Assembly: GCA_009746045.1 (NCBI GenBank) | Contig: RPFO01000002.1 | Coordinates: forward strand, 1,277,807 to 1,341,806 | Reading direction: 5' to 3' | DNA length: 64,000 nt | Origin: Mesostigma viride | Lineage: Eukaryota > Streptophyta > Mesostigmatophyceae > Mesostigmatales > Mesostigmataceae | The notes under the pieces: model-generated | What the model was told of the DNA's origin: nothing | Databases searched by the model: none | What the model saw: the letters and a program-made list of their open reading frames with translations, nothing else | Shown here: in pieces, positions 27,983-63,872 of the stretch | How the letters are laid out: each line of letters opens with the position of its first letter | Position numbering within the stretch: the first letter of the stretch is position 1 | Made by a program: the position numbers and the translations under genes

Positions 27983-30577
27983 ATGGCTTCTACCATGCTG
28001 GCCTCCCCGATAGTTATGTACAATGTTGCGTCTCGTGCAACCTCGGGAAATGCTCGTGGAGCGGTTTGCTCCGCGGTGCCCAGCCATCTTAACCGTCAGC
28101 CCTACGTGTGTACCTTGTCCAGGCGGGAAACAAAAATGGTTATGCCACAGCTCTCCCATAGCTTCGTCGGCCTGGCGCGCTCGGCCAAGGTGGCTCAGGT
28201 TGCTGGGGGTGTTGCAGTCGACCCAACCATTGCTTTCCGCGCCATTATCCGCCGTCAAGTGAGCACGTCCGCGTCGGCTGTGGACGCTCAAATGCCCCGG
28301 CGAGAGATCACGAAGGCAGAGGAGGTAGGTCCTTGGCTGTCTTTTGTATTTAGGGCGGTAAATGATCTGTAATTCAAACCTTAGTCGCTTCTTCCTGTGT
28401 CGATGGGACGCATCGTGCCATTCCCTTCGCATGTGCCGCTAGCTTGTTCTGCTATGCTTGAATAGCAGCGCAGTTCATGAAGAAATGTTGCACTCTCACT
28501 GCTGCCCAAACGAATTGCTCGGGCTAACAACAAGTGCAGCCATGCTCTCCCTTGCCTTGCACGTGCTCATGCCCTTGCCCCTAGACATTCAATCTCCCTG
28601 TCTGCCTGGTGTTGATGCCTTCCCCCCCCCCCCCCCCCCTCCAATCCACCCTCCATTACACGTCACCCCACGCGCTGCCTTATCTGTCGATGTGTTAAGC
28701 GTATTCCCCATGTCGGATGTCTGTGTGGCTTCTCTCACAACCGGGATCCGCTGCCCGCATGACTGTGTATGTTGGCCAACCTCAAACTCAACCGCAGCAT
28801 CCTCTTTTGTCGATCAACGTGCGTCTTACCCAACCTCAGCCATCTGTTTCTTACCCAACCTCAGCCATCTGTTTCTTACCCAACCTCACCCATCTTTTCC
28901 TTGCTCGCACCTCATCCTCCGCTACATCGATCGCTCCTCATTGTCCACCAGATCTACTTTGACGGTGGTGCCCACTACGGCGACATCGTCGTCAACCTCC
29001 TCTTCGGCCTGTCGGTCCTCTGGCTGCCCATCACGCTGGCTGCGGTGGCCCGCGGCCTGCTGCTGCGCTACCGCGTGACAGACGCTCGCATCACCGTCGT
29101 CAGCGGGTTCACTGGTATGCATGCCCCCCCCCCCCCCCCCCCCCCAACCCCAACCCCCCCCCAACCCCACATTTATTCTAATATTCTTTAAACTTTATCG
29201 TGTTGACCAACTGCGCCTGCTCAGCAGGTTCATTGGTAATTATCCGGTCTGCCCCGATCAATTATGTTATCGAATGTCAGTAGTTTATGTCATAGTGATG
29301 CCCGTCCCTATAGTAGTATCATTTGTGGTGGCCCCCTTGGCTTTCCATCGGTTTGTAGACACAAGGTTTTTCCCCCCCCCCCCCCCCCCCCACTCCTTCT
29401 TTCTCTCTCCTTGTTTGTTCGGGGGGCAAGTAAGTTAGGCTGGTTGAGAATCATCCACTGACAGAACAGCAAGGGGAGCCGCTGTGGGGAATGTGCTCGG
29501 GGCTGCTGCCTCCGCTCTCGTCTTGGGTGTGGGCACCACGCCTTGGCGACAGTTGGTGAACTTCCGGCAATCTTCTCATCGTTGTGCCACCCTTCCTTCC
29601 CCACGCGTGCTGGCGTAGCGTAGGTGCGACAAGTGCCACACGTACTTCCCACCTGCCTCTGGCACCTAACCACCCCTAGTGAGAGCTGCTCTAGCATCCT
29701 CTGTGCTAACTTGCACAACATCCTTTGCCTACTTGACTCCTTACTTGATTTGCTTGCTTGCCTGCTTGCTTGCCTGCTTGCTTGCCTGCTTGCTTGCCTG
29801 CTTGCTTGCCTGCTTGCTTGCCTGCTTGCTTGCCTGCTTGCTTGCCTGCTTGCTTGCCTGCTTGCTTGCCTGCTTGCTTGCCTGCTTGCTTGCCTGCTTG
29901 CTTGCCTGCTTGCTTGCCTGCTTGCTTGCCTGCTTGCTTGCCTGCTCGCTTGCCTGCTCGCTTGCCTGCTCGCTTGCCTGCTTGCTTGCCTGCTTGCTTG
30001 CCTGCTTGCTTGCCTGCTTGCTTGCCTGCTTGCTTGCCTGCTTGCTTGCCTGCTTGCTTGCCTGCTTGCTTGCCTGCTTGCCTGCTTGCTTGCCTGCTTG
30101 CTTGCCTGCTTGCTTGCCTGCTTGCTTGCCTGCTTGCTTGCCTGCTTGCTTGCCTGCTTGCTTGCCTGCTTGCTTGCCTGCTTGCTTGCCTGCTTGCTTG
30201 CCTGCTTGCTTGCCTGCTTGCTTGCCTGCTTGCTTGCCTGCTTGCTTGCCTGCTTGCTTGCCTGCTTGCTTGCCTGCTTGCTTGCCTACTTCCCTGCCTA
30301 CGTGCTTGCCTACTTCCTTGCCTGCTTGCTTGCCTACCTGCTTGGTTATAACCCCGCAGGCGAGGAACGCTCGGACATCCCGTATGCGGACGTGCGCGAG
30401 GTGCTCACCGTGCCGCGCTTTGTGGGTGCATGGGGTGACATCATCCTCAAGCTAAAGGACGGGACTAACATTGAGCTCAAGAGTGTGCCCCGCTTCCTCG
30501 AGCTCAAGGAGTACATCCTGGGCAAGATGAAGAGCATGCAGGCTGGCGGCGGGAACACCGGCACGGGCTTTGCTTAA
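27983..30577 (+). CDS. Plastid-targeted bacterial-type PH domain protein, three exons
   Basis: Exons 27983-28324, 28952-29114 and 30360-30577 give 240 residues. Donors GAG|GTAGGT and ACTG|GTATGC and acceptors CCACCAG and CCCCGCAG match in phase (0, then 1). Residues 1-60 are Ser/Ala/Arg-rich with almost no acidic residues, typical of a chloroplast transit peptide. Exon 2 encodes two adjacent hydrophobic stretches (VNLLFGLSVLWLP, LAAVARGLLL) and YRVTDARITVVSG. Exon 3 continues SDIPYADVREVLTV, then DIILKLKDGTNIELKSVP. The alternation YRVT-RI-V-G / DI-Y-V--V / G-I-L is that of bPH_2 (DUF304-like) domains, membrane-associated modules whose plastid role is poorly known. The leading GTG-initiated extension is not needed. 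The domain call is by pattern only. The second intron (1,245 bp) is almost half minisatellite. Confidence 0.7.
28620..28945 (+). repeat. Intron 1 repeats: poly-C and 27-bp units
   Basis: C17 at about 28624-28640 and three 27-bp units containing CTTACCCAACCTCAGCCATC at 28826-28900. Both lie in the first intron of the PH-domain gene. Confidence 0.8.
29121..29392 (+). repeat. Poly-C runs in intron 2
   Basis: Two long C homopolymer-rich runs (29124-29162 and 29371-29391) in the second intron of the PH-domain gene. Their true length is uncertain in any assembly. Confidence 0.8.
29746..30345 (+). repeat. 12-bp minisatellite (TTGCCTGCTTGC) in intron 2
   Basis: About 45 tandem copies of a 12-bp unit, nearly perfect, ending 15 bp before the acceptor at 30359. 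Cys/Leu/Ala frames across it are translations of the repeat; only the part after 30360 is coding. The array replaces the normal polypyrimidine tract region with C/T-rich sequence. Confidence 0.95.
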
Positions 30578-31254: not shown

Positions 31255-34200
31255 TATAATAATATAATTACTTACAGCAGAGTGAAATCACTCAAACCAA
31301 AGCAAACGCCCAGCTATAAACCTATATACAGAGCCATGTCAAAGCTCTATACTACGATAAGACCCATGGAAACTCCTAACGGGAGGAACCTAATAGCCCT
31401 GCTGCACCGCAAAATCAGCCCGCGTACGGCGGAGCATGATGTCAGCCATGGCCCGAGTCAGCGCCACCGACAAGCGCTGACGCCAATATGACGTCCAGGT
31501 CCGCGCCGACCATGAGGCCCGCTGGCCCTCCAGGTCCAGCCGGTCCTCCCGGAGCCGGCAACATTCCTTGAAGAAGGCGGAGGTCAGGGGCCCCATGGCC
31601 CCAAACTCCTCCAGGACAAAGGGCACCACACGATGGTGCCCGACGTCGCCGTAGGCCAGGAGCTTGGCCCGCTCCGCCCGGTCCGCCGTGTAACCTGCCG
31701 TGAGGGAGGCCCCAGCCACGTGGCTAAGAGCCAAGGGCCGCGCCACCGAAACGTCAATAAGCAGATGCCGGCCACCCCCCTCAAAGTCCAGCACCACGAT
31801 GTCAGGCCGGTGGTTGGGGGAATAGAAGGCAGCGCCATCCGCATCCTCGGACCGGATGTTCGCGTGGGGGAAAACCGACCGAATCATGGCGAGCACCACC
31901 GTCAGGAGGACAGTGTGCAAATACAAATACCAATTCTGATTCTGTTGGCCCCCCATGCAGGCAAGGTAGTGAGTCCCCGTGGGATCCAGCGGCTGCCCAC
32001 AGCTACCACAAGGCCGCCCGGCCGGAACAAGAGGCTGCGGGGCAAATAGCTGGTGCCGGAGCGCCACCGAGTAGTGGCTGGGAGCCAAGGCGAATGGGGG
32101 GGCCATGGGAAGAGCACGAAGGTACGCCGAGCCCACACTCCGCAAGGAAAGCGAGAACAGCCACGCACGTCCCTGGGCGTTGAGGTCCGCGAAAAGAGCA
32201 ATCCAATCAGCCGTGTGCAGAATACCCGCGTAGGTTTTCTGGTGTTTATCGATGACGCGAGCAGGGAATGCGGCGGGAGATTGAACGGAGGCGACCGAGG
32301 GAGTGCCGCGAGGGAGGTGGCGCTGTACCGCCTGAGCGGCACGGACGGGAGAACAGGCCTGCTGGATCTCAGCATAGGCCTCCTGGATGGCGGTGACGAA
32401 GGGCAAAGGGCTGCTGGGGTCCAGGAGGTCAGGCGCTGCCGTTGCCAAAAGGGGCAGGAGCCGGCAGCTTTCCGCCCACGACTGAGCGACGGAGCCCAAA
32501 AATGCTGCTGGGGCCAGCCGGGCGGCACGAGTCAGACCGCAGCCACCCATCCGTGCAGGCAGGGAGGCAATGCGAATAGCATGTGGCGGGAGGTCGGGGC
32601 CCGGGACCAGCTGCGCCAAGGCCGACTGGATGCGTTCGTCGTGGCCCTCGGCGGCCAGCCGGACCTGAGCCGGAAGAGCGCCCCGGAGCCAGTGAACGAC
32701 GCGAGGGTGAGCGCAAAACCACAGAAGCAGACCCTTGGTCTGCGAATCATGAAGGCGCGCAATCAAGGGCAGTACCTCAGTGCGTGCCTCGAGGGCGGCC
32801 CGCAGAGCATCGATGACAAACGCGGGGTCGCCAACCGGAACGCCGAGGACATCCAACCCATGGAGGCGCTCGTCCCGGCCCAAGAGCTGGGGCGGAAAGC
32901 CGGAGCAATCACCTTGGGGCGAGTACACCGCGCACTTGGCCAGGGTCAACTGGAGGTTGATGTCGGCCACCGCGGTCTGCAGTGCCAGCAGAGCCGCGGT
33001 GGTGTCCGGCACAGGGCCCAGAAGGTAGATATCATCCAAGTAGGCCTGAATAGCGACCGCCGGGTGGGCAGCATGGACCGCTTGGAGGCAACCCTGGAGG
33101 GGGGCGGCAAAGTACAGGGGTCCCAGGGGGTCCCCTTGCTGGGTGCCCGACCGCGACAGCAGGCCGCCGCGAGTGCCGTCCTCCATGATGTGAACCAGTT
33201 GGCCGGGCTGGCCGTAGCACACGGCTGTCCAAGCGTACAAGTCCTCGAAGGACTCCATGACGGCCGCAAACATGCTGGCGCGGGACAGACTGTTGAACGC
33301 GTTGTGGCAGTCGACCTTGACGACAGCGTGGGTGGGGTGGGCCTCGAGGTAGGCCTGCACCGAATGGATGAGGATATCCGCCCCGCCTGGAGTCGTCACC
33401 CCCAGCTGGGCCGCCACCGAGGTCTCACCCGCTGCGAGGGGCGGGCAGAAAAAGGCACGGAGCTCGGGCGCCTTTTGGCGGCAGATCACTTTGCCCACGA
33501 GCTTGCGGAGCACCTCACCGCAGGCGATCGGGCGCACCTTGCCCTCGGGGGGGGCAAGACACCCTTGAGCAGAGCGAGGAGGCGAGCGCCCGCTAACCAC
33601 TCGCGCGCAGCGGGAGGAACGCGACCAGCCGCCAGGTCAATGAGGGTGTCAAAGAGAATGTCCTCGCCCCCATGCCCCACCAGGACCTCCAAGTGCTCGT
33701 AGCGCCAGCCCGACGGCCCGGTAGAGGAAGCCCGCGGGACCGCACGCATCACCTCCAGGAAGCAGTCGCGGTCCAGCCGGAGGGGGGCCGGCAGGGGGTC
33801 CGGCACGGGCAGCTGGAATCCGGGCTCCGCAGGGTGAAGAGCCTCCAAGGCCGCCAGGGTAGCCGCATTGGCGGGGGCCAGCTTGGCCATTTCCAAGCGG
33901 GTCATGGCCCGGCTGAGCTGCCCCTCGCGGACGAGGCGGATGACGTCGGCGGCCACCCGCTCGAAGTTGACCTCCCCCGACAGCCGGGCCGTGCGCGGGG
34001 GCGGCACGCCAAACAGCCCCTCCCAGTCCCCCTGCAGAAAGCGTCGGCAACGGGCAATAACCGCACCCTGGAGGCCGCGCACACCACGCCCGAGAGGGGT
34101 GAGGAGCAGGCGGGGGGTCACCATGTGCAGTTTAAAGCCCAGCGGGTCGTCCGGAGCGGCGTGCATGCGCCGGAGAGAAACGATTGCACATTGCGCGAAA

Positions 34201-47403: not shown

Positions 47404-50400
47404 TTAACTAATGCCAGTGCCAGGATCCAGCAGCAGTTTATGGCTGTACTGCTCCCCGTTCAGGTAATACCCATTGAAGTTGATCCGGGTGACCAGATCC
47501 TGCAGGTGAGGGAAATGCCCCACTTTGAGCTTGGTCGATAGAACCTGCTCGTCATGGATGGGAAGCCAAGACAGGAAAGAATAGCAATGGCGGGAGCCAC
47601 AAGGCATCAGTATAGGGTGGGATACCTAATTGATTTACCCATGGCAGCAGTTTATAGCGGGGTTAGGACAAGGCAGGAGGCATCAGTGGAAGCATAACAA
47701 AGACGAAAAAAACTAGCCATGTGCTGCAAGCACATATAAGTACTATAGATGCTGATAATACGAGCCGGCTACTATATGCAAAACTCAAGTAAATAAACTT
47801 CTTTATACGTACCAGTTGAGACCTTGCGGGTTATAGTTTGGAGGCAAAAAAGGGCAAAGTATGTAAATTATTACATTACTTAAACATGTAAAAACTTTAG
47901 CCTTTGTGCTGCCTTTCACTTTCGCTCAGTCTCAATTGGTTTCGTTATGTTTGCTACATTCTTGTGACATTGGCCATCTTTCCAGTGGCTGGACTGCTAG
48001 CCCCGCTGTAGATCACGACCGGTAGTCCTGCTGTAGGCTTGCTTATAGTTATATATGTAAGCACTGCTGCGCTGCAACTCAAGGCAAACCTCTCTGAAAC
48101 TATGGCTCCTCAACCTCTTTGTAGGTGAAGGCATACGAAGCACTATTCGCACAAGCTGATCGGACCCCAGACGAAGTAAGCAACTTCAAGTGTCAGTGCT
48201 ATTCTATCTGGACTCCACTCCAGACTGACGCAACGAGGTTCAATACCGTAGTGGCCAAAATCACTTTGCGACAGATACTTTGCGAATCGAACTCGCAAAC
48301 TTATATTAATTTGCTCTACTTTGGCTCACAAACTCTAGTTTACATGCCATTGTACTTCACTACTAGATTTTGTACTTGTTTCATTGGGTTGTACTAGAAA
48401 AGCGCCGCGTCGCAATCGCCATGTTGGAATAGTTTTGCCTCGCACACCTTAACTTTCACCTTGTGTTGGGGTCGCAGAATAATTTGTCGCAAAGTGATTG
48501 AGACCACTGCGCTACGGGGTAGCAAGTCCATCGCTGGTGGGACTCAATGAACTTGTTTTAAAATTCTAAACGAGTTCATAATGGTGCTAAGCATGTCGAA
48601 ACCCTCACCCGCAGCAGGAACGCGTTGCAGTCGTGGAAGGAATGCCGCGTCTGGAGCAGCTTGGCCTTAGAGGAGGTGATGAGCGAGGGCTGGCCCCACT
48701 GGCAGGCGGCCAGAGCGTGGGACGTGTGGAAGAAGTCAAGTGCCAGCGCAAGGATGGTCTTAACCCGGCCCGCCAGCAGCGTCCACTGGGAAAGGGGGTG
48801 GTGGGAGGAGAAGAGGGGGGGTGAGGAATAATATTTTATGCAAGCATCCAGTGGTTGAATTGGAAGGAATCACACGACACGTAGCATGATATTCAACAGG
48901 CAGCAGCGTCCACTGTGTGTGCGGGGAGGGGGGGGGGGATTGAAAGGGGGAGGGCCGGTGTTTCCATGCAAGCATGCTGCACATGAATGAGCGGGAATAG
49001 CACAACACGAAACGTGTATAGCTTGACATACGACAGGGAGCAGCGTGGGTGTAGCATCGCATCAGGGGCATAATCACTTTCTTTGTCTGCTAGCATCCTG
49101 TAACTAGGAAACCCACCAGCCGGTCGGGCCATAGCTAGCAAACCCGCCAGCGGGTCGGGCCATAACTAGCAAACCCACCGGCCGGTCGGGCCATGACAGG
49201 CAAACCCACCAGCCGGTCGGGCGCGGCGAAGCACTGTCGCTGGATGGACTCCAGGTAGGCCTCGTGGGCACCGCGCGCCTCGTCCAGGGACGTGGCGGCC
49301 GCCAGGGACTGTGAGAGCTGGCCCCAGGAGTAGTGGAGCACCTGGACGAGGGTGGGGCATAAATTGAGGTGGGCAGGCAAGTTGGAACATGAGTTTTGCG
49401 GAGCACCGATGAGTGGGGGGGGACGCTAAAAAGCAAAAAGGCAGTTTGGATCAGAAGATATGAAACAGAGAAAAAACATGGAACATTTGGTTCCTAAGTC
49501 TTCAGTACCACTCAGATGAGACCTGCCTAGATGATACACCACTTGGTCAAACCTGACGAATGAAGCCTTCATGAAACACCCCACGCCCTATCCCTGGCAA
49601 CATACCTTGTCCCGCATCACCTCTGCAATAATATGTATATGCCCCACATCAGGCAAAGAAGCACGCCCCCTCCTCCCCCTTCCCCCCCCCACACATTTGC
49701 GCCCTTCCTTTCCACTCCCCCGGTCCATCACGTATTGGTATCCACTCCCCCGGTCCATCACGTATTGGTATCCACTCCCCCGGTCCATCACGTATTGGCA
49801 TCCACTCACCCGGTCCATCACGTATTGGTGGATGGTATCCACAAAGTGCACCAGCTCCACTAACACTTGCAGCTGCAGCTGGTGCACCTCGGTCTGGGCA
49901 CCACCGCGCGCCGCCTTCACGCCCTGCAGGGAGATGCAATGAGGTTATACAAGTAGACGGTTATACAAGTAGGTGGGCGTGCGGGCGGGTGGGCGGGTGG
50001 CGGTGCGATAAAAGGGGTGCCTAACAGCAAGGCTAATCAATAAATACTACCTGAACTGAGAGTACAAATGTCAGTCTTTTGTCTACATTGAAATAGCTAC
50101 CCGCTGTCTTATACTCAGGTGAGAAGAAAGGAAAAGGAAACGATTCCCTATGGCCATGCATGCGCGCTCTGCAGGCGCACAAGTGTGTGGTGGACAAATG
50201 CGTGGGAGATCAGGTAACACCTGCGTCAGACCGTATTGAGGCGGCATGGCAGGAGGTTTGTGGGTGTTGGTGACATCCAGACTTTGAAGCATAGCAGCAT
50301 CAGAGTTACTACTATAATTCTACCACTGCGTGCAATACAAGTAATCATAGTAAGCGCAAGGGAAACCTCGGCACGCATGCGCAGTGGGGGACATCGGGCC

Positions 50401-53400
50401 TGCCTCGATGCCAAGGTGGCGGAGCTTGTGTAGCCTATGTCATGTGATATTTCGACCTACCTCAACATAGAGGCGGTGGAGCTTGTAGAACCTGGATCTC
50501 CACACACATACGACGGTGGATGATATGAGGCCTACCTCCACACACATCCGGTGGACCTTGTAGAGCACGTGCTTGGCCAGCTTGACCTTGAGCAGGAAGC
50601 GCATAACCTGCGCGGGCGACCGTCCATCCATCATTCCATCACATGCCACGTTGTGTGGTTAGTGAAAGAGAGTGAGGTCAGTGTAGTGAGCGTGGCTAGA
50701 TTGATTAGCGTAGTGTGCTTCGGGAGGTTGCGGTGGTTAGCGTGATCATTGTGATGTGCGCGGTTTTGTGTGGTGTGTGGTGTATGCCGATCGGTTTCAT
50801 GTTTGTGCACGGTGCGTGCATTGCATCTGCATTTGTGGGTAATGCGGTTCCGTTTGTCGGGTCTGTGCGGACGGCTCCATTCGTTGGGTCTGTGCGGGGC
50901 CACCTGTTGCGGTGGGCCCAGCCATACCCAACGCACCCGACCACTTCTCACGAGGTGCCCGTGCAATGTCACCGCTCAAGCTCAATGACAAAGTGATGGT
51001 GAATAACAAAGAGGTGGTTAGCGACCAAAAGCTGGTTCACAACAAAGAGGTGGTCAATCACAACGAGGTGGTTAAAGACAAAGACGACTTATGTGTGGAA
51101 ATGATCCAATGAAGCACACAGTTGCTCTCATAAACGGAGGGGTGTCCCTCACATGATTTCCGACCTTGCAAAAATAGGTTCCTCATAACAATTTCAACCT
51201 TGCCTGAAACCTGCGCTGTCCCTGACTACATGATCAACCGTGCGAAAGCAGAGGCACCATCCCTAGCAACAGTATCAACACACCGCACCACCCTCTGTGA
51301 CCCTTCCCACCCTCAGTGAAGCATGTACCACCTCACAGCTTCCAACAGTGACAGGAAGGCGTCCTCTCTCTCACATTGTTGTACTTCTGGAGTGCCACAT
51401 CATCGACGATGATGCCCAGCGGCCAGCCGACCTGCAAGAACCCCAAGGGACAAGGGGCCAGGGACACCAGCCATGCACGATGTACAAATTTCCAGCGGTT
51501 CACATGGCAATAAGAGTGCATGGGGTGGCAGGCTGGCAAGCTAACGGAGACCCCCCAGCGGCATTTCTACAACACAGCGAGGACACGCCGATGCAGGTCG
51601 GCAACCCATGCTCGCTTTCCCGCCTCCCAATCCCTCCCTGCCCACCACTGGATTCGCAACAACGACCATGTTCAACCTGCTACCTTCCACATCTGGACTC
51701 CAAACCGGAGCGCCCGAGTAAACAAAGTGACCAATACCGGACTCTGCTCCCAAAACCACTTGGATCAGATATCCAGGCGGTACATCCAATCTTCCAACGG
51801 TCCATATCTCTCTTACATAACTTACATCACCTACATAACAGGTCAATCAATTGATAGGACTCCCCCCACCTTGTACCATACCTCCCATCACTTTGTACCC
51901 CCCCACACACACCTTGTATTCCAGCGTCAGACGTTCCAGGGCCTCCAAGCCGTAGCCTGCGGCCGGCTCCTGCTGTGAGCGGAATGATGCCGTCGCATTC
52001 CCACCGCCGATGTCACGGGCACCGCCACCGCCATCACGAGGGCCCCTCGCGCCCACCCCCGCATCCTCCAGAATTATGGAGACTGCGTCAGCGCGCGGGA
52101 GATCGGGGTCCATCGACTGCTTGAGTGCGTCCTGAAAGGGGGGAAGAGGGAAGAGGGGGAGTAGCAATAACAGGAATATGACAATAATAATTGACAGGAA
52201 TATGGCGTCCATCAGCTGCTTGAGTGCGTCCGGAGGGGGGGAAGAGGGGAAATAGCAACACTATACACAGAACATTAGTCATTGATAGGAGATCGTTGAG
52301 TGCGTCATGTGTGTGTGGGGGATAATGGGGAATAGCAAGAGGATAAATAGGACCGTTCTCGTTGATAGGAGAACTGGGTCTGTTGACTGCTTCAGGGCAT
52401 CCTGCTAAACAGCAAAAGGGAAGGAAAGCAGTGACAGGGATACCAGGGCCACTTTGATAACTTCAATAACTCGGCCATGCATCCTCAGGTTATTTTGAAC
52501 TTATGCTTACCAACTTGATTACCTGAAGCCAGTGTGGAGTGATGCCAAAGACGACACAGGCCTTGTTAGCAATAATTGCTAGGAAGCCAGGTGTGGAATA
52601 ATTTGATACGAGTGCTAAGGCATATATAGAATGGGTTATATAGTGTCTGTAGCCTGGGCAACCTTGCAAGGCCATACTCCAAGTGGATGCATTCGTTTAA
52701 ACTACAGTTAAAACCTGCCGCTGGTTGTGGAATGATCCCGTGGTACAGTCATCCACGCATGAAGTTGGGTTGCCTTAAGATGGGTTCGCACCTGAAGTCA
52801 CCAGTCGCCCAGGATTTCGGCATCCTTAGTTCAAACTAGGTCAAATTAGTATGTTTTAGTATCTTGGGTTCAAATCAGTGCAGTTTTATAAAATCACTCA
52901 CGCCTTGAGTCGGGTTCACGCCTCCTTAAGTTAGGTTGACCCCGATTAATACAGCGAACCCAACTTAAGGCGTAAATGACTGTACTCTAATGATGTACAG
53001 CTCAGGGCCACCCACTTGCAGCCAGGTGTGGTCGCATACTTCGCATTTGAAAGCACACTTTCAGTATAGCACTGAAACAAGTATTATTACCTGCGGCCAG
53101 ACATTGAGCAGTCGCAATACCCCAGCGGATCTCGTTGTTTGTTTTCCAAACGACAATAACCTGCAGCCAGATGTTGAGCTCACTATCTTGCTAAATTGAG
53201 ACAGTGCGTGTTGACAGGCCGACCCACCTGCAGCCATTTATGGTTCAGCGACACTTCAAAGAATGCACGCTCCACTTGTCACCCACACACACCTGCAGCC
53301 AGTTGTTCAGCTCGTCGTCGTCCCATTTCTCAAAGTGCTGCAGCTTGTGGAACGCCGACTTGAGGAAGGGAGCCAGCACGTCTGCCACCACAGGGTGTTG

Positions 53401-56400
53401 CCCAAGGGAGGCATCCGAAATAGATACCATGGTTGATGGTGGCAGCACATCTTACCATGATGGTAACATCCAATGGTGGCAGCATTGTCACAAACAGAAG
53501 GCACTCCCACCACCGCAACATAGTGGGCTATGAGTGCCAGGGGAATCGTCACGAGACACGCCAGATGGAGTGGAGCGACTCGATACGGTCGTGGGACGAG
53601 ACAATGGGTCGCTTGATCAGCAAAGTGCCAGCGCCACAATGGAACCCATTTATCATAAACTAAAGGATGACTTAAGCAGCTGTTGGTGGAGAAATACGCA
53701 CTTCAAATGGCGGTGATGCTTTCACCTAGAAAATGTGACGATTTTTTGGATATGGCCGTTTAGGCCCCCCTTCCCCCCCCCCCCGCCCCGCCCCCACCCC
53801 AGCAAAGAAAAAAGGCACAAGCATTGCTGAACAAGGGTTACACTGGCAGAGGCATATTCGGCAGGCAGATGTACCACATTCTTCATTACCAGAGCCCAAA
53901 ATGTAACAGAGCCTCGAGACAAGCGTCTATGGAAGGGAGTTTTAATTCGTATGGGCGCCAGGACGGTGAAGTCTCTGGAAAAACTACCAACGGTCACCGC
54001 GGGCTGTTGGAAAGGAAAAAGTGGGGGGCACCAGGGCCATGTGCATACCTGACCCCTGCAAGTAGATGGCCCTCAGCGCCCTCAGCTCCTGCTGAAGGCG
54101 CCATTCGCCCATCAGGCGCGTCAACAGCTGGGAGCCGACCGCCCGGCACTGCGCGCGACGGCATCAGCAGAAAACGCCGCATATTGTTGCCACAGGCGGC
54201 CACGTGGAGGAGCCAGGCAGCATGTGGCATCACATTTTGCGTCAGGTTTCACGTGGCATCGTATCCTATGCTATTTGTTTTCAAGGAAGGGGTCAACTAG
54301 ACACAATTGGTTTGTCAAGTGGTATATTGTGTCAAGGCAGGGATCAACACGACGCAATAGCGTGTCAAGAGGTCAACTAGACACAATAGCGGGTCCACGT
54401 GTCAAATGAGGGGTCGACTAGACAAAACATCGTGTCAAGTAAGGGGTCGACCCGACATGACATCTGCTACTACCAACAGTACCACTAGTACAAGGTACAC
54501 TAGGCCCGGCGCTGACCTGTGTGATGCGCACAAACACTTGTATGCAGGTCTCTTTAGAGCCCAGGATATTATACCATACCACCTGCCACAGGACACGGGG
54601 CTCTACCACCTGTCACAAAACACGTGGCTCTACCATCTGTCACAAAACACTTGGCTCTACCATCTGTCACAGGAAATGTGGAGAGTACCGTGGCATCGAT
54701 GTGGTCCAGGAGGCATTTCTGAACGATCAGGGACACCGGTGGCGGGGCCGCCAGGGGGGCGTGCCGGAGCCATTCCTCGGCATCCTCGCATTCTTCTCGG
54801 CCGCTTCCTTGGCTTTGCCCGGGGTCAGCCGTCTCGTACCGTGGGGCTTGGCCTGATAGCGCGAGGGCAAAGGTGGCACAGTTTCTGCTGGCAGACTGCA
54901 CGCCATGCGGCAAACGGGAGCGGCCGAGGGTGGCAGCATACGAGGTAGATGGTGGGAATGCGGATACCAAACGTGAAGAGAAAGAGCAATGATTCATAGT
55001 GTGACAAGGCGCAGAATCAGAAAAAACATCCAAGGGAAGGCTACCAGTTCGGCACCATACGATACCGACGTGTTCGGTTCACGTCCTCACAACTTAACAC
55101 AGTCCTCACAACGAAGGATGTCTGTCTGCCTGGACAAGTCCAACGGAATCCTATGGCATTGGGCTCCTAGTGTTGACTAGATCTTACCTAAGTCGAGGTG
55201 ACCTGGTGTCGTTGACTAGATTTACCGTCACATCCCTTTCGCACCTGGTTCGCATGCTAACTGCTGTCGCACGATGAACAGATGCTACCTACCATCACAG
55301 ATGCTGGCTAGAACCACCGTCACCTGCTGATATCATCTCATGAAGCGCATGCTGCTTACCGCACTGGCAACTCCTCACAGACTTGCCTAGAGAAGGCAAC
55401 CAACGACTTGGTTGGGCCGGCAAGTCCAAGGAAGAAGAACCCGCAGGGACCAAGTACTGCAGCTATTAACAGTACAAAACAGCACGATGACATTCAAGCA
55501 TGTGACCTGACCTGCACATTAAAAACACAAAATATACCCACAATAACAATACACCCAGTCCACAATATCTTACCCAGGGATCCAGCGAGCGAAGCAGCTC
55601 CGCCGCTTCCCCCGCCGCCACCTGTCCGCTGATCACCGCCGCACCCAGCAACGCGCCGCCCTCCTGCCACCACGTGCCGCCCTCCCCTCCTTCCCCCAGG
55701 TCGTACTGGCTGAACACGCTCCCCCGCCCATCCCCTCCAGCAACAACGAGCCTGCCATCACTGCCTCCACTTATGCTGCCACCGTCACCACCACCGGCAA
55801 TGTCAGCCCCCCCACCCTTCAGATGTCCACCGTGCGCCCGGCAGCCAGCACTGCTGCCCGCGACCACGAGGGACAACGCAGCAGGGTCCCTGGGACCGCC
55901 GCCTAGAGCAGGCAGTCCGTGCAGCAGCCCCCACCCTGCGTCGTCGTCCAGGTGAGCATCCAGAATCGGCTCAGGCACACCCTCCACACCGCCCACCAGA
56001 ACCATCGCGGTGCCCACCGGGTCACTACCCCCCTGTGCTGCCACTGTCCCTGCGATGACACCGTGGCGCTGACCCCCCCCGGCGAGCATTCCACTTATGC
56101 TGGCCCCTCCTGGCACACACTTGGCAGCACTGGTCATGCTGGCACCTGGAGCAGAGCTCCCGCCAGCCGGTTGTCCCTCAACCGCTCCTGGGGCCGAGAC
56201 CAAAGCTACCTTTGAGGCCTGCTTTGAGGCTTTTTTGGAGGCTCGCTTTGGGGATAGGTCCGTGTCAGGCTCCGAGCCAGCAGGCGCCAGCTCATCATGG
56301 TCGTCGTCCTCATCAGCGCCATCATCAGCGCCGTCATCAGCGCTGTCATCAGCGTCGTCACCATCTGACGAAGAGACAGCCTGCTCAGCGTCACTGGAAG

Positions 56401-56449
56401 ACGCCTGTGACCGGTCCACACTGGCCTGAGCCGACAAGAAGTCCGGGTC

Positions 56450-56482
<33 letters not shown>

Positions 56483-59400
56483 AGCGCTGCGGGTGCGGCG
56501 GAGCCGCCCCCCCCTGCCGCCACGCTCCCCACCTTCCTCCTCCACCTTGTCATCCTCAAAGGTGCCGTCGTCTTCTCCTACAGCGCTGCCATCGACCGGA
56601 CGACCTGCCTGCGGACCCGCTGACATCAGCGGGCCCGCTCCCTTGCCCGCTGCAGTCCCAGTGGTCCCTGCCACGCCCATCTCATCCCCCTGGTGCTGCC
56701 CAGCAAGCGGCCCCACATCTCCCCCCTGTGACAGAAACGCATCGGCTGCGCCCCCCTTCGGCGCATCCAACAAATTAACTACATGATGGCTGTCGGGCGA
56801 TGCCACCAGAGGATGCGTGCCTCGCAAAGCTGATTCACCGGATGCCTCATCCTGTTGTTGCTCTGAAGTGAGCGCCCTCGCATGGCCATCCATGTGCACA
56901 AGTGCCCCCCCCTGCCGGGGGTCCATGCCCCACCCAGGGACCCCCTCGCGCGCCCTGGCCGGTTCCCCCCGCCGCCTCAACGGCGAAGAGCAAGAAACCC
57001 GCCGGCTCGACGGCGAAGAGCAAGAAACCCGCCGGCTCGACGGCGAAGAGCAAGAAACCCGCCGGCTCTGTGCTAATTGCTGCCTCTCGCTCCTCGTGCC
57101 CCCACCCTGGCTCAGGCGTTCCAGCGCGTCCAGACCGGGGGCGTCGCTGTCACCCTCCCTCCCTTTCACCCAACTATACCCCTCCATCGTGGCCCGCAGC
57201 GTGGCGCAGAAATGGGCGTACAGGGACAAGGGGGAGGGACCAGGCATGCTGCCCGCTCCACCGTCGGCCGAGCCGGCAATGACACTCCGGCCCGCAGAGG
57301 CTATTGGCGCCGCCAGCACGCTGCCAGGGTGGGCGCTGGGACCTCTCGTGCCCAAGGGGCGGGGGGTGGAGCCACCTTCCCTGGTAGGGCTCTCGTCCCC
57401 CAGGGTGCTGTGGTCCATCGCGGCGCCAGAAACGTTGAGCCGGGCGAGAAAAAGCTGCTGCTGCCGCTGCTCTTGCTGTTGCTGCTTCTGGTGGTGCTGG
57501 TGCTGCTTCTGGTGGTGCTGGTGCTGGTGCAGATGAGTCTGTTGGTAATGGTAACGATGCGCCCCATCCTCCCTGGGACCCTGCGCCACATGGCCATCAG
57601 GGCCCAGGGCGCCGGAACCGGTGCCAGGTTTTCCCACGACCGCCAGCGTCACCCCCTTCTTCTGCAGGGAGCTGGTCTTCTCCAGTTTACTGCCGCCGCC
57701 GCCACCGGTGCCGCGTGCGTGGCTGGGGATCATGCTGGCGGTGGCACCCGCCGATGAAGAGGAATACGAATAGGGAGCTTGGGTGCTGTGGGATGACGAT
57801 GGGTGCGCTTTGGGCAGCCGGTGGCCCGTGTGGGTGAGCAGCTGCAGGGACTTACCGGCCGAAAGGATCGCCCCCGCATGGCCACGCAGGAAGCTCGCAC
57901 AGCAGACCACACCCGCGCGGGCGGACTTGGCCCCCACCATGCCACCCTTGCTGTTGCCGCTATACTGGTTGCTGTTGCCAGCAATACCACTGGCGCCGCC
58001 CCCTCCGACTACGTTGGACCCTGCGGCCGAGAACGCCTCGCTGCGCACGCTGGCCGTGTCACTGAATGCGTGCAGGGACACCTGGCGCCGTATCCCGCCG
58101 CCACCTGGCAGCTCACCGTCCAACTCCCTGCCATCATCCGAAACCGCGGTTCCTGCCGCCCCAGTACCCCCGATCAAGGGCAGCCCTTTGGCCAGCGGGA
58201 CGCCAGCGCTGAGGACCCTGGGGGGGGCATCCCAGGTAGGGCCGGGGTTATGGCCCGGCTTGTGGGGCCGGTGGCCTGTTAGGGTGGTACTAGCGCCCGC
58301 ACCGGCCCAGGATTTGATGGAGGTGGGTGGGCTGATTGACCCCAGGTCCGACCCGCTGTCCCGGTCGAGCGATGCAGTGTCGAGGGAGGGGCGGAGAAGG
58401 GCGTGGGAGCGGCGCAGGCTGAAGGCGGATGTCCAGAAGGAGGGGGCGTCGACGCCGAGCGTGGGCATGCTTGCAGATGTCACCATCATCTGGGCCCGGG
58501 GGTGGGTGGGTAAGGGATCAAGGGCGGAGGAGAGAGTGAGTTGATAGGGATTGATTGAGTTAAAAGGGATCTTAGGAGATAAGCTTGCGTTACAAGTGTG
58601 GGCGAGCAGAGGAGAAGTCTAGGCGCGTCTTGTTACCAATTGCTAACACGCTAGGGCGTTGGTACAAAGGTCGCTCGTTGGCTTTCATGACAAGTGTCAC
58701 GCGTACATACCCTTACGAGACACTTCCAGTCCTTAGGGACGGGATGCTTAATTTAACGACAAGGTTAATATCCGACTGTGCTGGCCACGGATCCAGCATC
58801 AGGTCAGCACCCGTCACATCACCGAGCACTGTCCCGCATCGCCGAAAAGGATGGTAGTACTAGGACATCTTTAGGCCTGACATCACACGGGAATTACTGC
58901 CGTCGGCACAATCTATATGCGGACGCCAGTGTGGCGCGGCGCTTGCTACCGACGGTACTCAGACCTAGTCAAGTCCTATTGGTGGTCTTGCTCTACCAAA
59001 TCATAAGGGCCACAATTAACCGGAACATCCAGGCTAACTGCTTGTGGTGGCCAGGAAGGGCAGGCGAATAATGGGCCTAAGGGGGTCAGGCATGGTGGGT
59101 GACTGGCAGGCTGCTGGGATTTGCCGCATTCTGTGGCTGGGGGAGAAGACAGTGAACAAGGGAGTGAAGGGATAAACCTCGTGACAGCGGCTGGAAATAA
59201 GGACGGTACGAGAACTATTCACTCCCCCTCTGTTCTACATTACCATCGTGGCTCTACGAGGGGGGAAGCAAACGAGGGAGGGAAGTGCGGAAGGGATGTT
59301 CAGGAAACATCTTGCCTTACAACACAGGTGTCAACGCCACGCATGTCGATCAACTCTAAATGTGATGAGCGCCAGACATGAGAAAAGCAACACAGCAGCA

Positions 59401-62400
59401 CTAGCATGGAAGCGCATCAAGGGGAGATGTACTGACATACTAGACCCCTTTTGAGATCGCAGACACCGACAAGCTTGGTACGACTAATTGAGTCGTACCA
59501 ATTAGTCGTACCAATATTCGTACTTCACCGGTGTACGTGCCTGCCTGCCAGCCAGCCAGCCTGCCTGCCTGCCTGTGTGTGCACAACCCACCCACCCACC
59601 CCTACCCATCACCCCTGCCTCCTCCTTCCCCTCCCCCCCCCACCTCTCCGTGGGGGTCCTCCAGCCGCCCCTGCTGGAGCCAGCAGTCCAGCGCGTCCAG
59701 GCTCGGGCGCAACGAGGCCACGAATAGAATAAGCACGGTGCGGTAGCTGTGCTCCTGCGCGAAGAGAAGAGGGGGGTGGGGTGGGGTGACAGGGGCATGG
59801 GGGAGGGGCCGGACAAAACAAAGGTAAGACGGCAAGGGCAGGGAATGGGGTGCGTGATGCTACCATGGTGGGCAGCATAAATAATAACTGGTGGGGTGCG
59901 CGATACTACTACGGTGGGCAGCATAAATAATAACTGGTGGGGTGCGCGATACTACTATGGTGGGCAGCATAAGTAATAACTGGTGGGGTGCGCGATACTG
60001 CTACGGTGGGCAGCATAACACAGAAAGGTGGAGCGGTGCATGATGCTACTACGGTTGGCAAAAAAAAAAAGAAGTGGAGGGGGTTGGGATGCCACTACGG
60101 TGGGCAGCATAAATATTTACTGGTGGGGTGCAGGATGCTCGAGCAGGAGAAACCGGGTGTGCTGAAACATCGTTGGTGCCATATGGTGGCAGCGACATCC
60201 TGGCTGGCGCCCATGCACCTCATCCTCTAGTATAATGCCGACAGCAGCCACCCACCTCATCCTCTAGTATGATGCCGACAGCAGCCACCCAACTCATCCT
60301 CTAGTATAATGCCGACAGCAGCCACCCACCTCATCCTCTGGCAGCAAGCTGGCCTTGCACAGCCACTGGTATAATGCTGACAGCAGCAACGCAGCGTCCT
60401 CGGCCGCGCTCCCCCCCGGACTGCTGGCACCCGCGTGGTCCCCTGACCCCCGCCCCAGGCACTGCCAGCGGGGCGCCACCGCTGCCTCCACGATCTGGGC
60501 CAGCAGCCGCGCGCGCGCCATCGGGCTGCCAGGTGTTGCGTGCACAATGCACCGCACGAAGATGGCTTATAAGACGAGGGTGCATGATGAGACAGATAGG
60601 GGGAGGGAGGGGAGAGAGGGGGGGCAACGGGTGGGAGGGAAAGCTTGAGAGGGATGCACACAAAGGAGTGGCTGACACGCGGCACAACAACCAAGGCAAA
60701 CCATGCCTGGTTCTGACACCAGGGGCTAATCTGTCGGTAATTTGCTGGCAAAGAGTCCGTCGTTAGAACAGATTGGATGGCTGACCAGCACATTGGTCAG
60801 CTCCATGTAGTCAGCTCTTTGCGGAAAGTTCCTGAAAGAAAGAGAAAGACGTATCGTGCTTAGGGAAGGTGTACCATCTCCACTGCTGAACAAAAGGGGA
60901 GGGTGCATCTTGCTTAAATAAAGGGTATCATCTACGTTGCTGAGCTAAAGGGGAGGGTGCATCTTGCTTAAATAAAGGGTATCATCTACGTTGCTGAGCT
61001 AAAGGGGAGGGTGCATCTTGCTTAAATAAAGGGTATCATCTACGTTGCTGAGCTAAAGGGGAGGGTGCATCTTGCTTAAATAAAGGGTATCATCTACGTT
61101 GCTGAGCAAAAGGGGAGGGTGCATCTTGCTTAAATAAAGGGTATCATCTACGTTGCTGAGCTAAAGGGGAGGGTGCATCTTGCTTAAATAAAGGGTATCA
61201 TCTAAAGTGCTGAGCAAAAGGGGAGGGTGCATCTTGCTTAAATAAAGGGTTTCATCTACGTTGCTGAGCAAAAGGGGAGGATGTACCAGCAGCGCCTGCG
61301 TCAACAAGGCATCCCCATCTAGTTTAGGGACCGATGCCAGATGATACGGTCACCCCACTTATTCTAGCTATCCCCAATAGACGATGCGGTGCAGGGATGC
61401 CATCGCAAAGGTGATCACCAGCAGGAAAGATTTCCACCCACTCACCATCAGTCCACACCGCAGACAGCTCCCTGCCTGACCATCAATCAGAAACTCTACT
61501 AATTTATCAAAGACAGTTGGGAGGTTAAGAGAGTCAACAGACGATTTGCTGTCAAAGGAGTTTTTTGTTTGGCGCGTCCTGTGGGCTATCCTGCAAGGAA
61601 GGTTGGGAGATTATCAGAGTCAACTGCCGGTTTGCTGATTAAGGAGTGCTTGTTTGGCGCGTCCTTTGGGCTATCTTGCAAGGAAGGTTGGGAGGTTACC
61701 ATAGTTGGGCTATCTTGGAAGGAAGGTTGGAAGGTTATTATTAGTTATGCTATTTTTGCAAGGAAGGTTGGGAGGTTCTCATAGTTGGGCTATCTTGGAA
61801 GGAAGGTTGGGAGGTTTACATAGTTGGGCTATATTGCAAGAAAGGTTGGGAGGTTCTCATAGTTGGGCTATCTTGGAAGGAAGGTTGGGAGGTTTACATA
61901 GTTGGGCTATATTGCAAGGAAGGTTGGGAGGTTATCATAGTTGGGAAAATTTTCAAGAAATGGTCCACCCCAACGCCGGTGAGGGAACAGACTCCAACCA
62001 GCCGATGCCTGCCAACCGGCACGCTCGCTCACCCCTGCAGCCGCGCCAGCGTGGACAGCAGGGTGAACCGGGAGCTACCCAGGGGGTGTGCAGCCATGGC
62101 CCTGTCGACGACGGCCACCTCGCTCCGCACGCCCTGCACAGGACGTGTGTGTTGGGGTGAGGGGGAAGTGCAAATTTCAAATCTCAACGGGCAGGGAAAC
62201 AGGAAGGGGGCAACCAGCCTCGGTATGGGCATGAACCCCGGGTCCACATAAAGTATGAGGCATTGTCAGCTACAATAACCACTGGCTCAGCACGTGAAAT
62301 AAGGACTGCCGTGTCCGATGCAATAACCACTGGCTCAGCAGGTATTTTATGAGCTGTTTTGTCAGGTAGAATACCGAATGCTGTGTCAAGCGGAAACCAG

Positions 62401-63872
62401 CTATTTGTTTGCTATAGTAAGAACTGTTTCATCAGATGCGATAACTAATTTTTTGGCAAGTAGAATGACGACTACTGTGTTGTCCGGTGCAATAGCCATG
62501 GTCTTGGCAGGGACAATGACAACTGTTTTGTGCGGTACAAAAATGACTGGTTCGACAGCTGGAATGCCACTTTTTCATCAGGGACAGAAACACCAGGGGT
62601 GTGTACCTGCAGTTCCTTGGCCAACGCGTTCGCAAACGCCTCCATGGTGGGCCCAGGGACCGAGGGTATGCCGTCCCCCGTCACCCGTGAGCCCCCCTGG
62701 TGCCCCTGCGATGACGACGACGAGGACGACCCTGGCACCCACTGCAGACTGGGTGGGCCAGAGTTAGACCGTGTGAGAGTGGAGCCAGTCGTCCGGCGGG
62801 CCATGGCGGCTGCGCCGCCTCCCCCACCGCGTGCGAATCCGCCCGCACCCTGCCAGGTGCCGGTCCCCCCCTGTGCAGCGTTGGAGATGGCCCAAGCGAC
62901 GCCATCCACAAAGGATTGCACTTGGAGGAGCGCGGTCCCCGCGGCCACAAAGTCGGCCAGGAGGGAGTGGAGGCTGGAGGGCGTGAGGTGCCTTACGTGG
63001 ACCTGGGCCATCGCCTGCAGTGGGAGGGAAGGTGGGAGATATAGTAGGATGGGTGGACGGCCGTAAACACGGGTACTTGATGGCTGGGGATTACAGGACA
63101 CCGTGAACCCAGAGGATGCGTTCAGACATGAAGCCACGGGATGCCAGGGCATGGGCGCCCTAAGTATGACCCGGCCAGGAAACTAGTATGAGTGACAGTA
63201 CAAGCACTAGCGTTCCGTTGTGATTATTCATATGCTGTGGAAAGTGACACAAGATCCGTAAACTGCACGGAAACCAGGGTCAGCATTCCAGCTCACGACA
63301 CGGGGTGAGGATTCATGTAAGATTGCATATGTGAGATGGATTATTTATGCTGGTCCCATACTGCCATGTCCCGACTGTCGGTGCAGCACGGAACATGCGC
63401 CGTGGAAAGGCATGGCCCAAACTCTGCTTGATCCACCAGGCTAGCATGGGTGGAAACTCCCACCGTGCCCATGGGAAGTCTGGGGCATGGGGGACCAAGA
63501 AGCCAATAATCAATAAAAGCATTTATCACAGGTGGAAAAGCATGTCCACTGAAGGTCATCGCGTCCATCCCAAACCGACCATGCCGCTGTTGATAGCAAC
63601 CTCATTAACTACACACAGCGACCATGTACACTGAAGGTAATCGCCTCCATCCCAAAACCGACCATGCCGCTGGTGATAGCAACCACATGAATTACAGACA
63701 GCGACCATGTCCACTGAAGGTAATCGCTTCCATCCCAAACCGACCATGCCGCTGTTGAAAGCAACAACATTAACTACAGACAGCAATCACATACATTAAA
63801 GGTCATCGTCTCCGGGTCCACCCGGAAGACATCCCCAGGGATGCCTGCCAGCATGCGGAGGACGTGGCGCAC
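47404..63872 (-). CDS. Gamma-tubulin complex component, GCP6/GCP5-like, 16 visible exons
   Basis: Spc97/Spc98-family protein of the gamma-tubulin ring complex, which nucleates microtubules. Exons (5' to 3'): 63872-63795, 63014-62607, 62133-62033, 60525-60330, 59754-59644, 58489-55574, 54895-54689, 54148-54049, 53381-53293, 52131-51913, 51431-51375, 50607-50536, 49923-49810, 49341-49210, 48785-48609, 47544-47404. They total 5,118 bp, and every phase joins. GRIP1 signatures: LRMLAGIPGDVFRVDPE, LHSLLADFVAAGTALLQV, LDCWLQQGRLEDPHGE, FLRGHAGAILSAGKSLQLL. GRIP2 signatures: RLMGEWRLQQELRALRAIYL, KSAFHKLQHFEKWDDDELN, LTLEYK-VGWPLGIIV, RFLLKVKLAKHVLYKV, ELVHFVDTIHQYVMDR, AHEAYLESIQRQCF and the terminal LVTRINFNGYYL. 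The large insert between GRIP1 and GRIP2 and the RINFN-YY end favour GCP6. The start codon is to the right of the window. The 54895 acceptor is the least certain. Confidence 0.9.
48786..49240 (-). repeat. 31-bp donor-proximal array, plus acceptor copies
   Basis: Four 31-bp units from 49107 to about 49230 (AAACCCACCAGCCGGTCGGG type). The rightmost is the real exon end CCGACCGGCTG|GTGGGT (exon ends 49210). One intronic unit has GCGGGT instead of GTGGGT. At the other end of the intron the acceptor plus exon start (CAGTGGACGCTGCTG, exon from 48785) is copied at 48912, with a weak third copy near 49048. Confidence 0.85.
49711..49830 (-). repeat. 30-bp donor-proximal array, extra donors inactivated
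   Basis: Exactly four 30-bp units. The one at 49801-49830 contains the exon end and functional donor GACCGG|GTGAGT (exon ends 49810). The other three read GACCGGGGGAGT, having lost the GT. Confidence 0.95.
50388..50570 (-). repeat. 58-74-bp donor-proximal copies
   Basis: The exon end CTACAAGGTCCACCGG..GAG with its donor is copied twice into the intron, with exon-like ends at 50536 (real, GTAGGC), 50462 (GTAGGT) and 50404 (GCAGGC). Confidence 0.85.
51860..51925 (-). repeat. Short donor-proximal copies (TACAAGGTG)
   Basis: The exon end TACAAG|GTGTGTG (51913) is followed in the intron by TACAAAGTGATGG and TACAAGGTGGGGGG at about 20-bp spacing. Confidence 0.55.
52120..52420 (-). repeat. Acceptor-side copies of an exon start
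   Basis: The exon start GACGCACTCAAGCAG (52131) recurs upstream in the intron at 52230, 52306 and 52401. The last keeps an intact AGCAG|GAT acceptor and the longest match (GATGCCCTGAAGCAGTC..ACAGACCC). Confidence 0.85.
53005..53315 (-). repeat. 65-75-bp donor-proximal array, five copies
   Basis: The exon end GAGCTGAACAACTGGCTGCAG is repeated with exon-like ends at 53293 (real), 53228, 53161, 53091 and 53016. All copies keep a GT after the exon-like end, so cryptic donors are available. Confidence 0.85.
54270..54690 (-). repeat. Intron repeats (GGGTCAACTAGACACAA; 24-28-bp units)
   Basis: 54280-54440 holds about five units with GGGTCAACTAGACA. 54575-54680 holds four units with CTGTCACAAAACAC.GGCTCTACCA next to the donor at 54688. 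These do not clearly copy the exon end. Confidence 0.75.
55574..58489 (-). CDS. Giant exon of the GCP6-like gene with disordered insert
   Basis: A 972-codon exon, in phase with its neighbours. Its first part still belongs to GRIP1 (FWTSAFSLRR, then FLRGHAGAILSAGKSLQLL near residues 190-225). Between and after these it is low-complexity: Gly/Ser stretches, a His/Gln run (57465-57530), a 10-residue SCSSPSSRRV repeat three times (56985-57065), a Ser run (56450-56482), and Asp/Glu-Asp repeats with DDSADDGADDGADEDDD (56290-56370). It ends LLRSLDPW before a GTAAGA donor. GCP6 homologues are known for a long, poorly conserved central insert; here almost all of it sits in one exon. The complementary-strand frames are shadows. 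Confidence 0.85.
59500..59645 (-). repeat. CTGCCTGCC and CCCACCC simple repeats in intron
   Basis: Short simple-sequence tracts just inside the donor at 59643. There is no exon copy here. The rest of the intron, 58490-59500, shows nothing recognisable. Confidence 0.6.
59850..60150 (-). repeat. 49-bp intronic tandem array
   Basis: About six units with GTGGGCAGCATAAATAATAACTGG type sequence (shown broken: GTGGGCAGCATAA, TAACTGGTGGGG). Confidence 0.9.
60215..60345 (-). repeat. 37-bp donor-proximal array
   Basis: Exon-like ends at 60330 (real, GATGAG|GTGGGT), 60293 (TTGGGT), 60256 (GTGGGT) and 60219 (GTGCAT), spaced exactly 37 bp. Each unit carries AGAGGATGAG plus GGCTGCTGTCGGCAT. Confidence 0.95.
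60885..61280 (-). repeat. 54-bp intronic tandem array, about seven units
   Basis: Unit contains GGAGGGTGCATCTTGC and TTAAATAAAGGGTATCATC; nearly identical copies. It lies in the 1.5-kb intron 60526-62032. Confidence 0.95.
61580..61965 (-). repeat. 38-50-bp intronic tandem array
   Basis: About eight units with GGAAGGTTGGGAGGTT and ATAGTTGGGCTAT in the same intron, ending about 65 bp from the donor at 62032. Confidence 0.9.
62250..62570 (-). repeat. Degenerate intronic repeats
   Basis: Diverged units of roughly 50 bp with GCAATAACCACTGGCTCAGCA and ACTGTTTTGTC-like parts, in the intron 62134-62606. Confidence 0.5.
63535..63810 (-). repeat. 82-bp donor-proximal array
   Basis: The exon end GATGACCTTTAAT|GTATGT (63795) is followed by three copies with exon-like ends near 63713 (GGACAT), 63630 (GTACAT) and 63548 (GGACAT). 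Two of the three have lost the GT. Confidence 0.9.

Follow-up and report, generated by a model that had tools for sequence, protein, structure and literature searches.

The window, a stretch of 64,000 nucleotides from the genome of Mesostigma viride, holds a GCP6-like gene at 47404..63872 on the minus strand, recognised by a match to the GCP C-terminal domain (PF04130, E 1e-48) and with GCP6 chains as its best PDB matches. Mesostigma is a streptophyte green alga. Our exon model was built from reading frames, GT-AG sites, phase and homology, with the public protein compared only afterwards, and comprises 16 exons and 15 GT-AG introns within the window, all in phase:

GCP6 exons 1-6, minus strand: 63872-63795, 63014-62607, 62133-62033, 60525-60330, 59754-59644, 58489-55574
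GCP6 exons 7-11, minus strand: 54895-54689, 54148-54049, 53381-53293, 52131-51913, 51431-51375
GCP6 exons 12-16, minus strand: 50607-50536, 49923-49810, 49341-49210, 48785-48609, 47544-47404

Its translation, 1705 aa long, occurs without a mismatch inside the public M. viride (Mesvir1) model Mv13798-RA.1, of 1994 aa, so the two agree over all 1705 residues. A candidate 15-bp micro-exon at 49620-49606, encoding VMRDK in the intron after 49810, was rejected, being absent from the public protein; the stretch resembles the exon end VMDR and is perhaps a decayed copy. For the genome as a whole, the genome paper puts mean intron length at 1142 bp, with 30.1% repeats in introns (PMC6947507). Repeat arrays make up 3414 of 11351 GCP6 intron bases, or 30%, counted from intervals entered by hand.

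Three further frames in the window match a reverse transcriptase profile:

14428-17409, plus strand: reverse transcriptase frame (RVT_1 profile match)
19806-21281, plus strand: reverse transcriptase frame (RVT_1 profile match)
31393-33636, minus strand: reverse transcriptase frame (RVT_1 profile match)

The frame at 19806-21281 is 97% identical to a Mesvir1 protein over 66% of its length. Positions 1-47.3 kb contain 288 frames of at least 70 aa, 134 of which passed a complexity filter; domain scans of 118 of these 134 returned only the three RVT_1 matches and one weak NST1 match (E 0.005). Tandem Repeats Finder also reports short 10-mer arrays at 14198-14319 and 18747-18786 (GTATAATACG / CGTATAATAC / CGTATTATAC) and long simple-sequence tracts at 26-590, 4558-4898, 25978-26292 and 29751-30344 (GGGGGAAA, TTTCCCCCC, GGCG and a 12-bp TGCTTGCTTGCC array). 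Matches between contigs at L012 5151-6454, L022 695-1466 and L069 2100-2746 are ordinary, simple AGGG/CTCC/GAGG tracts.

Splice-junction copies in the GCP6 introns

Copies of the splice junction lie in the adjacent intron at 6 of 15 GCP6 donors and 2 of 15 acceptors:

63541..63813, minus strand: donor array at exon end 63795; 3.3 copies of an 82-bp unit, exonic part about 19 bp (Tandem Repeats Finder)
60216..60339, minus strand: donor array at exon end 60330; 3.4 copies of a 37-bp unit (Tandem Repeats Finder)
53003..53313, minus strand: degenerate donor array at exon end 53293; exon end and GT copied at +65, +132, +202 and +277
52098..52404, minus strand: acceptor array at exon start 52131; acceptor region and exon head recur, decayed, further upstream in the intron
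50367..50565, minus strand: degenerate donor array at exon end 50536; unit about 37 bp, with copies at +38, +75, +132 and +169
49711..49829, minus strand: donor array at exon end 49810; 4 copies of a 30-bp unit, 96% alike (Tandem Repeats Finder)
49101..49222, minus strand: donor array at exon end 49210; 3.9 copies of a 31-bp unit (Tandem Repeats Finder)
48774..49046, minus strand: acceptor copy at exon start 48785; 15/15 bases at the acceptor and a weaker cluster

The arrays differ in what they preserve. Counted on the sequence, the exon copy of the 60330 array has 28 bp between two CAG words that are missing from the array units, and the same donor is preserved in its +74 copy. The 53293 array advances in steps of 65-75 bp. 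At 50536 (self-comparison cluster 50456-50564), where the initial annotation proposed a unit of 58-74 bp, the array is real and the unit is nearer 37 bp, with steps of 38, 37, 57 and 37; the donor in its +75 copy scores equal to the real donor, and splicing from it would keep the frame and meet no stop. In the 49810 array, GG replaces the donor GT in all three intronic copies. Overall, GT is present in 13 of 22 GCP6 copies. The first, exonic donor is the one used by the public gene model in all six donor arrays, and because that model splices from the first donor the protein is unaltered by them. Upstream of the window the gene has four further introns, with copies at 0/4 donors and 0/4 acceptors.

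As a control, each junction was scored against all 210 mismatched exon/intron pairs in GCP6. Donors 60330, 53293, 50536, 49810 and 49210 and both acceptors, 52131 and 48785, outscore every wrong pairing; the score of donor 63795 is attained by 0.95% of them. The six donor copies and two acceptor copies claimed in the initial annotation are thus confirmed, four of the donor arrays being called by Tandem Repeats Finder as well. Its weak seventh donor, 51913, was dropped, its score of 9.0 being attained by 16% of wrong pairings. A 27-bp array at 54577-54689, starting 18 bp past donor H, contains GCCAC, which recalls the exon end GCCACG; it may be a seventh donor array, altered by an indel, and was left out of the counts.

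In GCP6, uniform self-comparison yields 13 non-exonic repeat clusters when its threshold is laxest, 6 spanning donors, 2 spanning acceptors and 5 internal to introns; two stricter thresholds give 12 (6, 2 and 4) and 11 (6, 1 and 4). When the 13 clusters, with lengths and units entered by hand, are placed at random, 1.28 donors are expected against the 6 observed (P(>=6) = 0.0007), while the two acceptor clusters are unremarkable (P = 0.37). The 14 Tandem Repeats Finder arrays alone put 4 at donors against 0.68 expected (P = 0.003). Some repeat covers 13% of random intronic points in the gene. Because GCP6 itself had prompted the idea, kinesin and dynein genes were tested.

Donor copies in kinesin and dynein genes

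Independent exons were taken from matches to the kinesin (PF00225) and dynein AAA_6 (PF12774) profiles and paired through profile continuity, and splice sites were picked by signal strength and phase, blind to repeats. The score threshold was 12, set in advance for dynein. Kinesin gave 129 matches, of which 120 were used (five rows on C622, one on C805 and one on C1104 were dropped as taken to be duplicates, and two on C1107 for stops), and 37 adjacent pairs, 34 of them usable. Dynein gave 44 matches, 35 used (six full single-exon matches and three unpaired rows left out), and 23 pairs, 18 usable (four unfetched, one without a splice pair). With the 15 GCP6 introns these make 67 introns from three gene groups of one genome. 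Contig C622 is 99.95% identical to part of C2 over 3901 bases (L068 and L077), which is probably assembly redundancy; as a haplotype comparison the pair was uninformative and was discarded.

At a score of at least 12, copies are found at 15 of 34 kinesin donors and 5 of 34 acceptors (11/34 and 3/34 at a score of at least 15), and at 6 of 18 dynein donors and 3 of 18 acceptors. Wrong pairings of exon and intron attain a score of 12 in 0.8-1.6% of cases overall in the two families, with 0.9% for kinesin and 1.3% for dynein donors. The match is confined to the exon tail, short of the donor, in 3 of these 15 kinesin cases and 1 of the 6 dynein cases. Among all usable kinesin matches, 6 of 37 acceptors have copies, a set that overlaps the paired one.

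Together, 21 of 52 kinesin and dynein donors have downstream copies, which is significant both against a conservative 13% background of points in any repeat (P = 8e-7) and against 6.5%, the share of random points at which a repeat starts (P = 3e-12). The 8 of 52 acceptors with copies lie above the 6.5% background (P = 0.018), though not above the conservative 13% (P = 0.36). The enrichment of repeat edges at splice junctions put forward for GCP6 therefore extends beyond that gene at donors, and at acceptors it fails against the conservative background. Across all 67 introns, both boundary types are affected, with copies at 27 donors and 10 acceptors. This set leaves out the four upstream GCP6 introns (0/4) and 19 unpaired kinesin donors (6/19); including them, 33 of 90 donors have copies. 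In these three gene groups of M. viride, about four introns in ten start with copies of the exon end, mostly with the splice signal. That the first donor is the one used is taken, for GCP6, from the public gene model and, for kinesin and dynein, from the continuity of domain profiles.

The signal is centred on the donor. Over the 67 introns, first copies appear at a rate of 0.28 at -20, 0.39 at -10, 0.36 at 0 and 0.30 at +10, then 0.10 at +50, 0.03-0.09 over +80 to +300 and 0.14 at +330. Donors thus stand about sixfold above the intron interior (36-39% vs 3-9%). The acceptor signal is unsharp: the last-copy rate is 0.15 at 0, stays flat at 0.12-0.15 out to -60 and is 0.02-0.11 over -80 to -300. 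Acceptors do not rise above the raw background of points in any repeat, which is 0.13 in the GCP6 introns and, in 38 introns, 0.08-0.24 by position from +20 onward. Comparing donor and acceptor within the same introns gives 20 to 3 discordant cases in favour of donors (P = 0.0005). Even without any intron bases, exon tails reach score 12 against their own intron in 19 of 67 introns, compared with 0.25% of wrong pairings; for exon heads alone the figures are 9 of 67 and 0.23%. Inverted copies occur in 0 of 67 introns.

The letters of the splice site do not account for this. First copies are found at 21 of 49 listed donors (43%), and at 112 of 1866 NAG|GT sites outside the donor list (6.0%), like random points (367/5639, 6.5%); complexity and position filters were used on the control sites and not on the 49 listed donors. 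With no excess over random sites, duplication driven by the NAG|GT letters was rejected. Strong donor-like motifs outside the list are first copies in 23 of 210 cases (11%), above random, and to us about half of these look like real donors missing from the list. The function of the junction, beyond its AG|GT letters, seems to matter for the copies, as the initial annotation had supposed.

Geometry and age of the arrays

The geometry set consists of 27 arrays, drawn from the 34 paired and 19 unpaired kinesin donors and the 15 GCP6 donors. Ungapped extension shows that 22 of them span the donor, and the copied piece in these is exon tail, donor and some intron head. Their exonic part is 8-60 bp long (median 20, all but one at most 38) and makes up a mean share of 0.29 of the period; their periods run from 30 to 205 bp, where the period is the smallest step that scored and the 63795 array therefore enters as 165, not 82. 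Period modulo 3 is distributed 6/11/5, so no reading frame is kept. The first copy retains GT in 16 of the 22, and nothing indicates that GT in copies is singled out for retention or for loss. The matched piece often measures 26-35 bp. Spacers could be compared in 20 arrays: 7 are clearly similar (z above 3), 4 borderline (z 2-2.5) and 9 unrelated (z below 2), the match in these 9 being limited to exon tail and donor. Plain tandem duplication with neutral decay is a poor predictor of those 9 arrays.

Repeats inside coding sequence behave differently. In exon G (2.9 kb, coding), Tandem Repeats Finder reports arrays at 56310-56360 (unit 12 bp), 56451-56482 (3 bp), 56968-57068 (30 bp) and 57454-57530 (3/21 bp), all with units in multiples of 3, unlike most junction arrays. 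Such a difference is expected if selection purges frame-breaking duplications from exons only.

Among arrays of at least 90% identity in 48 introns, 7 lie at donors, 7 in the interior and 0 at acceptors, with 0.84 expected at donors (P about 1e-5); at 95% or more the counts are 3 at donors and 4 in the interior (P = 0.003). This screen omitted a 7.8 kb intron and missed GCP6 arrays that Tandem Repeats Finder rates at 95-96%. The donor excess among young arrays means that slow decay of the exon copy is not the whole explanation.

Age itself can mislead. Two kinesin paralogs, on contigs C2189 and C1579, are 77-89% identical in their main matched blocks and have in common a 70-bp donor array, in one register within a single ungapped block that is 375 bases long and takes in two complete units and some of a third. 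Comparison of units 1 and 2 gives 8 concerted sites, where the paralogs differ but both units of each gene agree, and 0 retained, no difference between the two units being common to both genes; with the third unit, which is only partly repeat, it gives 2 concerted and 7 retained. On the simplest reading of these alignments, the array would predate the gene duplication, and the exon end would have evolved jointly with the first intron copy; alternatively, new duplications may have arisen there repeatedly. Concerted change of this kind means that the apparent youth of an array can be homogenisation.

Origin of the arrays and comparison with known systems

Taken as a whole, these arrays are probably best explained as mirages, that is, short local duplications of DNA that straddles the exon-intron boundary. 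Such structures have already been described in the amphioxus Adh, globin, TnC and PGBD5 genes, so the initial annotation was mistaken in finding no name for them. The first step would be a local duplication of the ordinary kind, produced by slippage or when nicks close to each other undergo fill-in repair. Copies at donors may persist since the 5'-most donor stays in use, while splicing would tend to choose any additional acceptor lying upstream of the used one, and such an acceptor would then be purged. Expansion of the array, homogenisation with the exon and decay would follow. Arrays whose first copy is exonic, and so under purifying selection, could survive longer and add to the bias in duplication. 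The least certain step is that working donors may suffer extra duplications, probably through DNA damage linked to transcription or splicing. More specifically, and nearer to possible than to probable, working 5' splice sites may be duplication hot spots that write the exon end and donor into the adjoining intron, with exchange between copy and exon feeding back on the coding end. The donor bias may stem from DNA damage and its repair at donors, from arrays surviving longer or from selection, and the data here fit a mutational cause as well as a selective one.

Several routes raised in the initial annotation find no footing here. An origin from lariats is at odds with copies in which exon tail and intron head are joined as in DNA. 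G-richness of intron heads, the sign of R-loops, is not significantly higher in introns with copies (GC skew 0.33 vs 0.13, P = 0.29). Intron growth through donor copies is likewise unsupported, median lengths being alike with and without them (634 vs 653.5 bp).

Survivorship might do all the work on its own: duplications would fall evenly, those in exons would be purged, those at junctions would stay visible about twice as long by virtue of a frozen exon copy, and upstream acceptors would be harmful. The frame-keeping repeats of exon G agree with this, as does the capacity of concerted evolution to make old arrays seem young. Longer recognisability of junction arrays should be worth about a factor of two, which fits the acceptors, where by our inference the excess over the 6.5% background corresponds to a roughly twofold longer life. 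Donors, at about sixfold, overshoot that prediction; the remaining factor needs a donor-linked source or selection. Arrays of at least 90% identity, as many at donors as in the whole interior, also weigh against survivorship as the only cause, and we think it unlikely, if still worth serious attention. Selection could supply the difference if extra U1-binding sites downstream of the donor aided splicing or shielded the transcript. GT is indeed often kept (16/22 arrays), and at 53293 the exon end and GT outlast the spacers; by our arithmetic, however, about 18 of 22 would be expected for two bases at a mean identity of about 0.91, and GT is gone from every intronic copy of the 49810 array, which makes this improbable.

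Fragments of unspliced pre-mRNA around the donor might have been reverse-transcribed and reinserted nearby. The window has RVT_1 frames, pieces of 26-35 bp are common, and the match is limited to exon tail and donor in 9 of 20 arrays. Against this, inverted copies are absent from all 67 introns, 7 of 20 arrays are true tandem units with similar spacers, and neither spliced nor lariat RNA can yield an exon tail joined to an intron head; we give the idea very little credence. In 1989 Rogers is said to have proposed that introns are gained by tandem duplication of AGGT-containing exon sequence, and the copies could mark recent gains of that kind. Cases are known, in the text available from the reports, for potato RdRp (PMC4974935) and for human exon-intron boundary repeats (PMC2812944). 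Yet the model demands one of two likenesses, and the intron head resembles the next exon head in 1 of 67 introns and the intron tail the previous exon tail in 0 of 67 (score 9, attained by about 1% of wrong pairings), so that intron gain is scarcely credible here. That satellites of a repeat-rich genome touch junctions by accident draws on the 13% of random GCP6 intronic points within repeats, but wrong-pairing controls, random placement and the position profile speak against it and the independent introns refute it, and we attach practically no weight to chance.

Among known systems, introner elements were rejected because the same sequence does not recur across introns of other genes (wrong pairings match in only 0.8-1.6%). 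Vaughn and Bennetzen in 2014 and Schiml in 2016 reportedly described patch-mediated short local tandem duplications in plants, arising from repair of nearby breaks. These are of the same short local tandem type and offer a likely first step for the M. viride arrays; we know of no report that they favour splice donors. Intron gain by AGGT duplication, in the Rogers model and, as far as the available accounts go, in potato RdRp and the human variable tandem repeats, is also a local duplication that copies splice signals. There a new intron arises, whereas the M. viride introns pre-exist and lack the predicted head and tail similarities. Cryptococcus, according to the part of the report available, gains introns by DNA repeat expansion in which near-identical whole introns are multiplied (PMC2395259); repeat expansion at splice sites is common to both, but in M. 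viride only exon end, donor and intron head are copied.

The closest likeness is to the amphioxus mirages, which the available text of two reports describes as minisatellite-like duplications of exon-intron boundaries in Adh3, globins Gb6 and Gb9, TnC and PGBD5, with units of 10-160 bp, either boundary end possible, AG/GT in many but not all copies, regular splicing undisturbed, concerted evolution within arrays, and somatic and allelic length changes (PMC3087553, PMC3902484). The generating mechanism is called unclear in the same text of PMC3087553, whose authors propose that mirages can create introns. As in that account, the M. viride repeats span the boundary at both donors and acceptors, only part of the copies carry the splice signal (13/22 in GCP6, 16/22 first copies), and concerted evolution is seen, in one paralog pair. 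Titles and abstract openings in a literature search yielded no genome-wide mirage survey and no algal report; the available text of the M. viride genome paper (PMC6947507) does not mention junction repeats, and the stem 'splic' is absent from its main text. How intron length changes and how splice sites turn over has long been asked, yet live cases are few. Should donors indeed attract duplications, M. viride would offer many fresh and decaying examples within one genome, and concerted change of exon ends with their intron copies would be a little-noticed force on the coding sequence that flanks introns. The kind of structure is known; new, by comparison with the single amphioxus loci as the available text presents them, are its occurrence in a streptophyte green alga, its frequency (27 of 67 donors), the measured donor bias, and the link to working donors, with no excess in the NAG|GT control.
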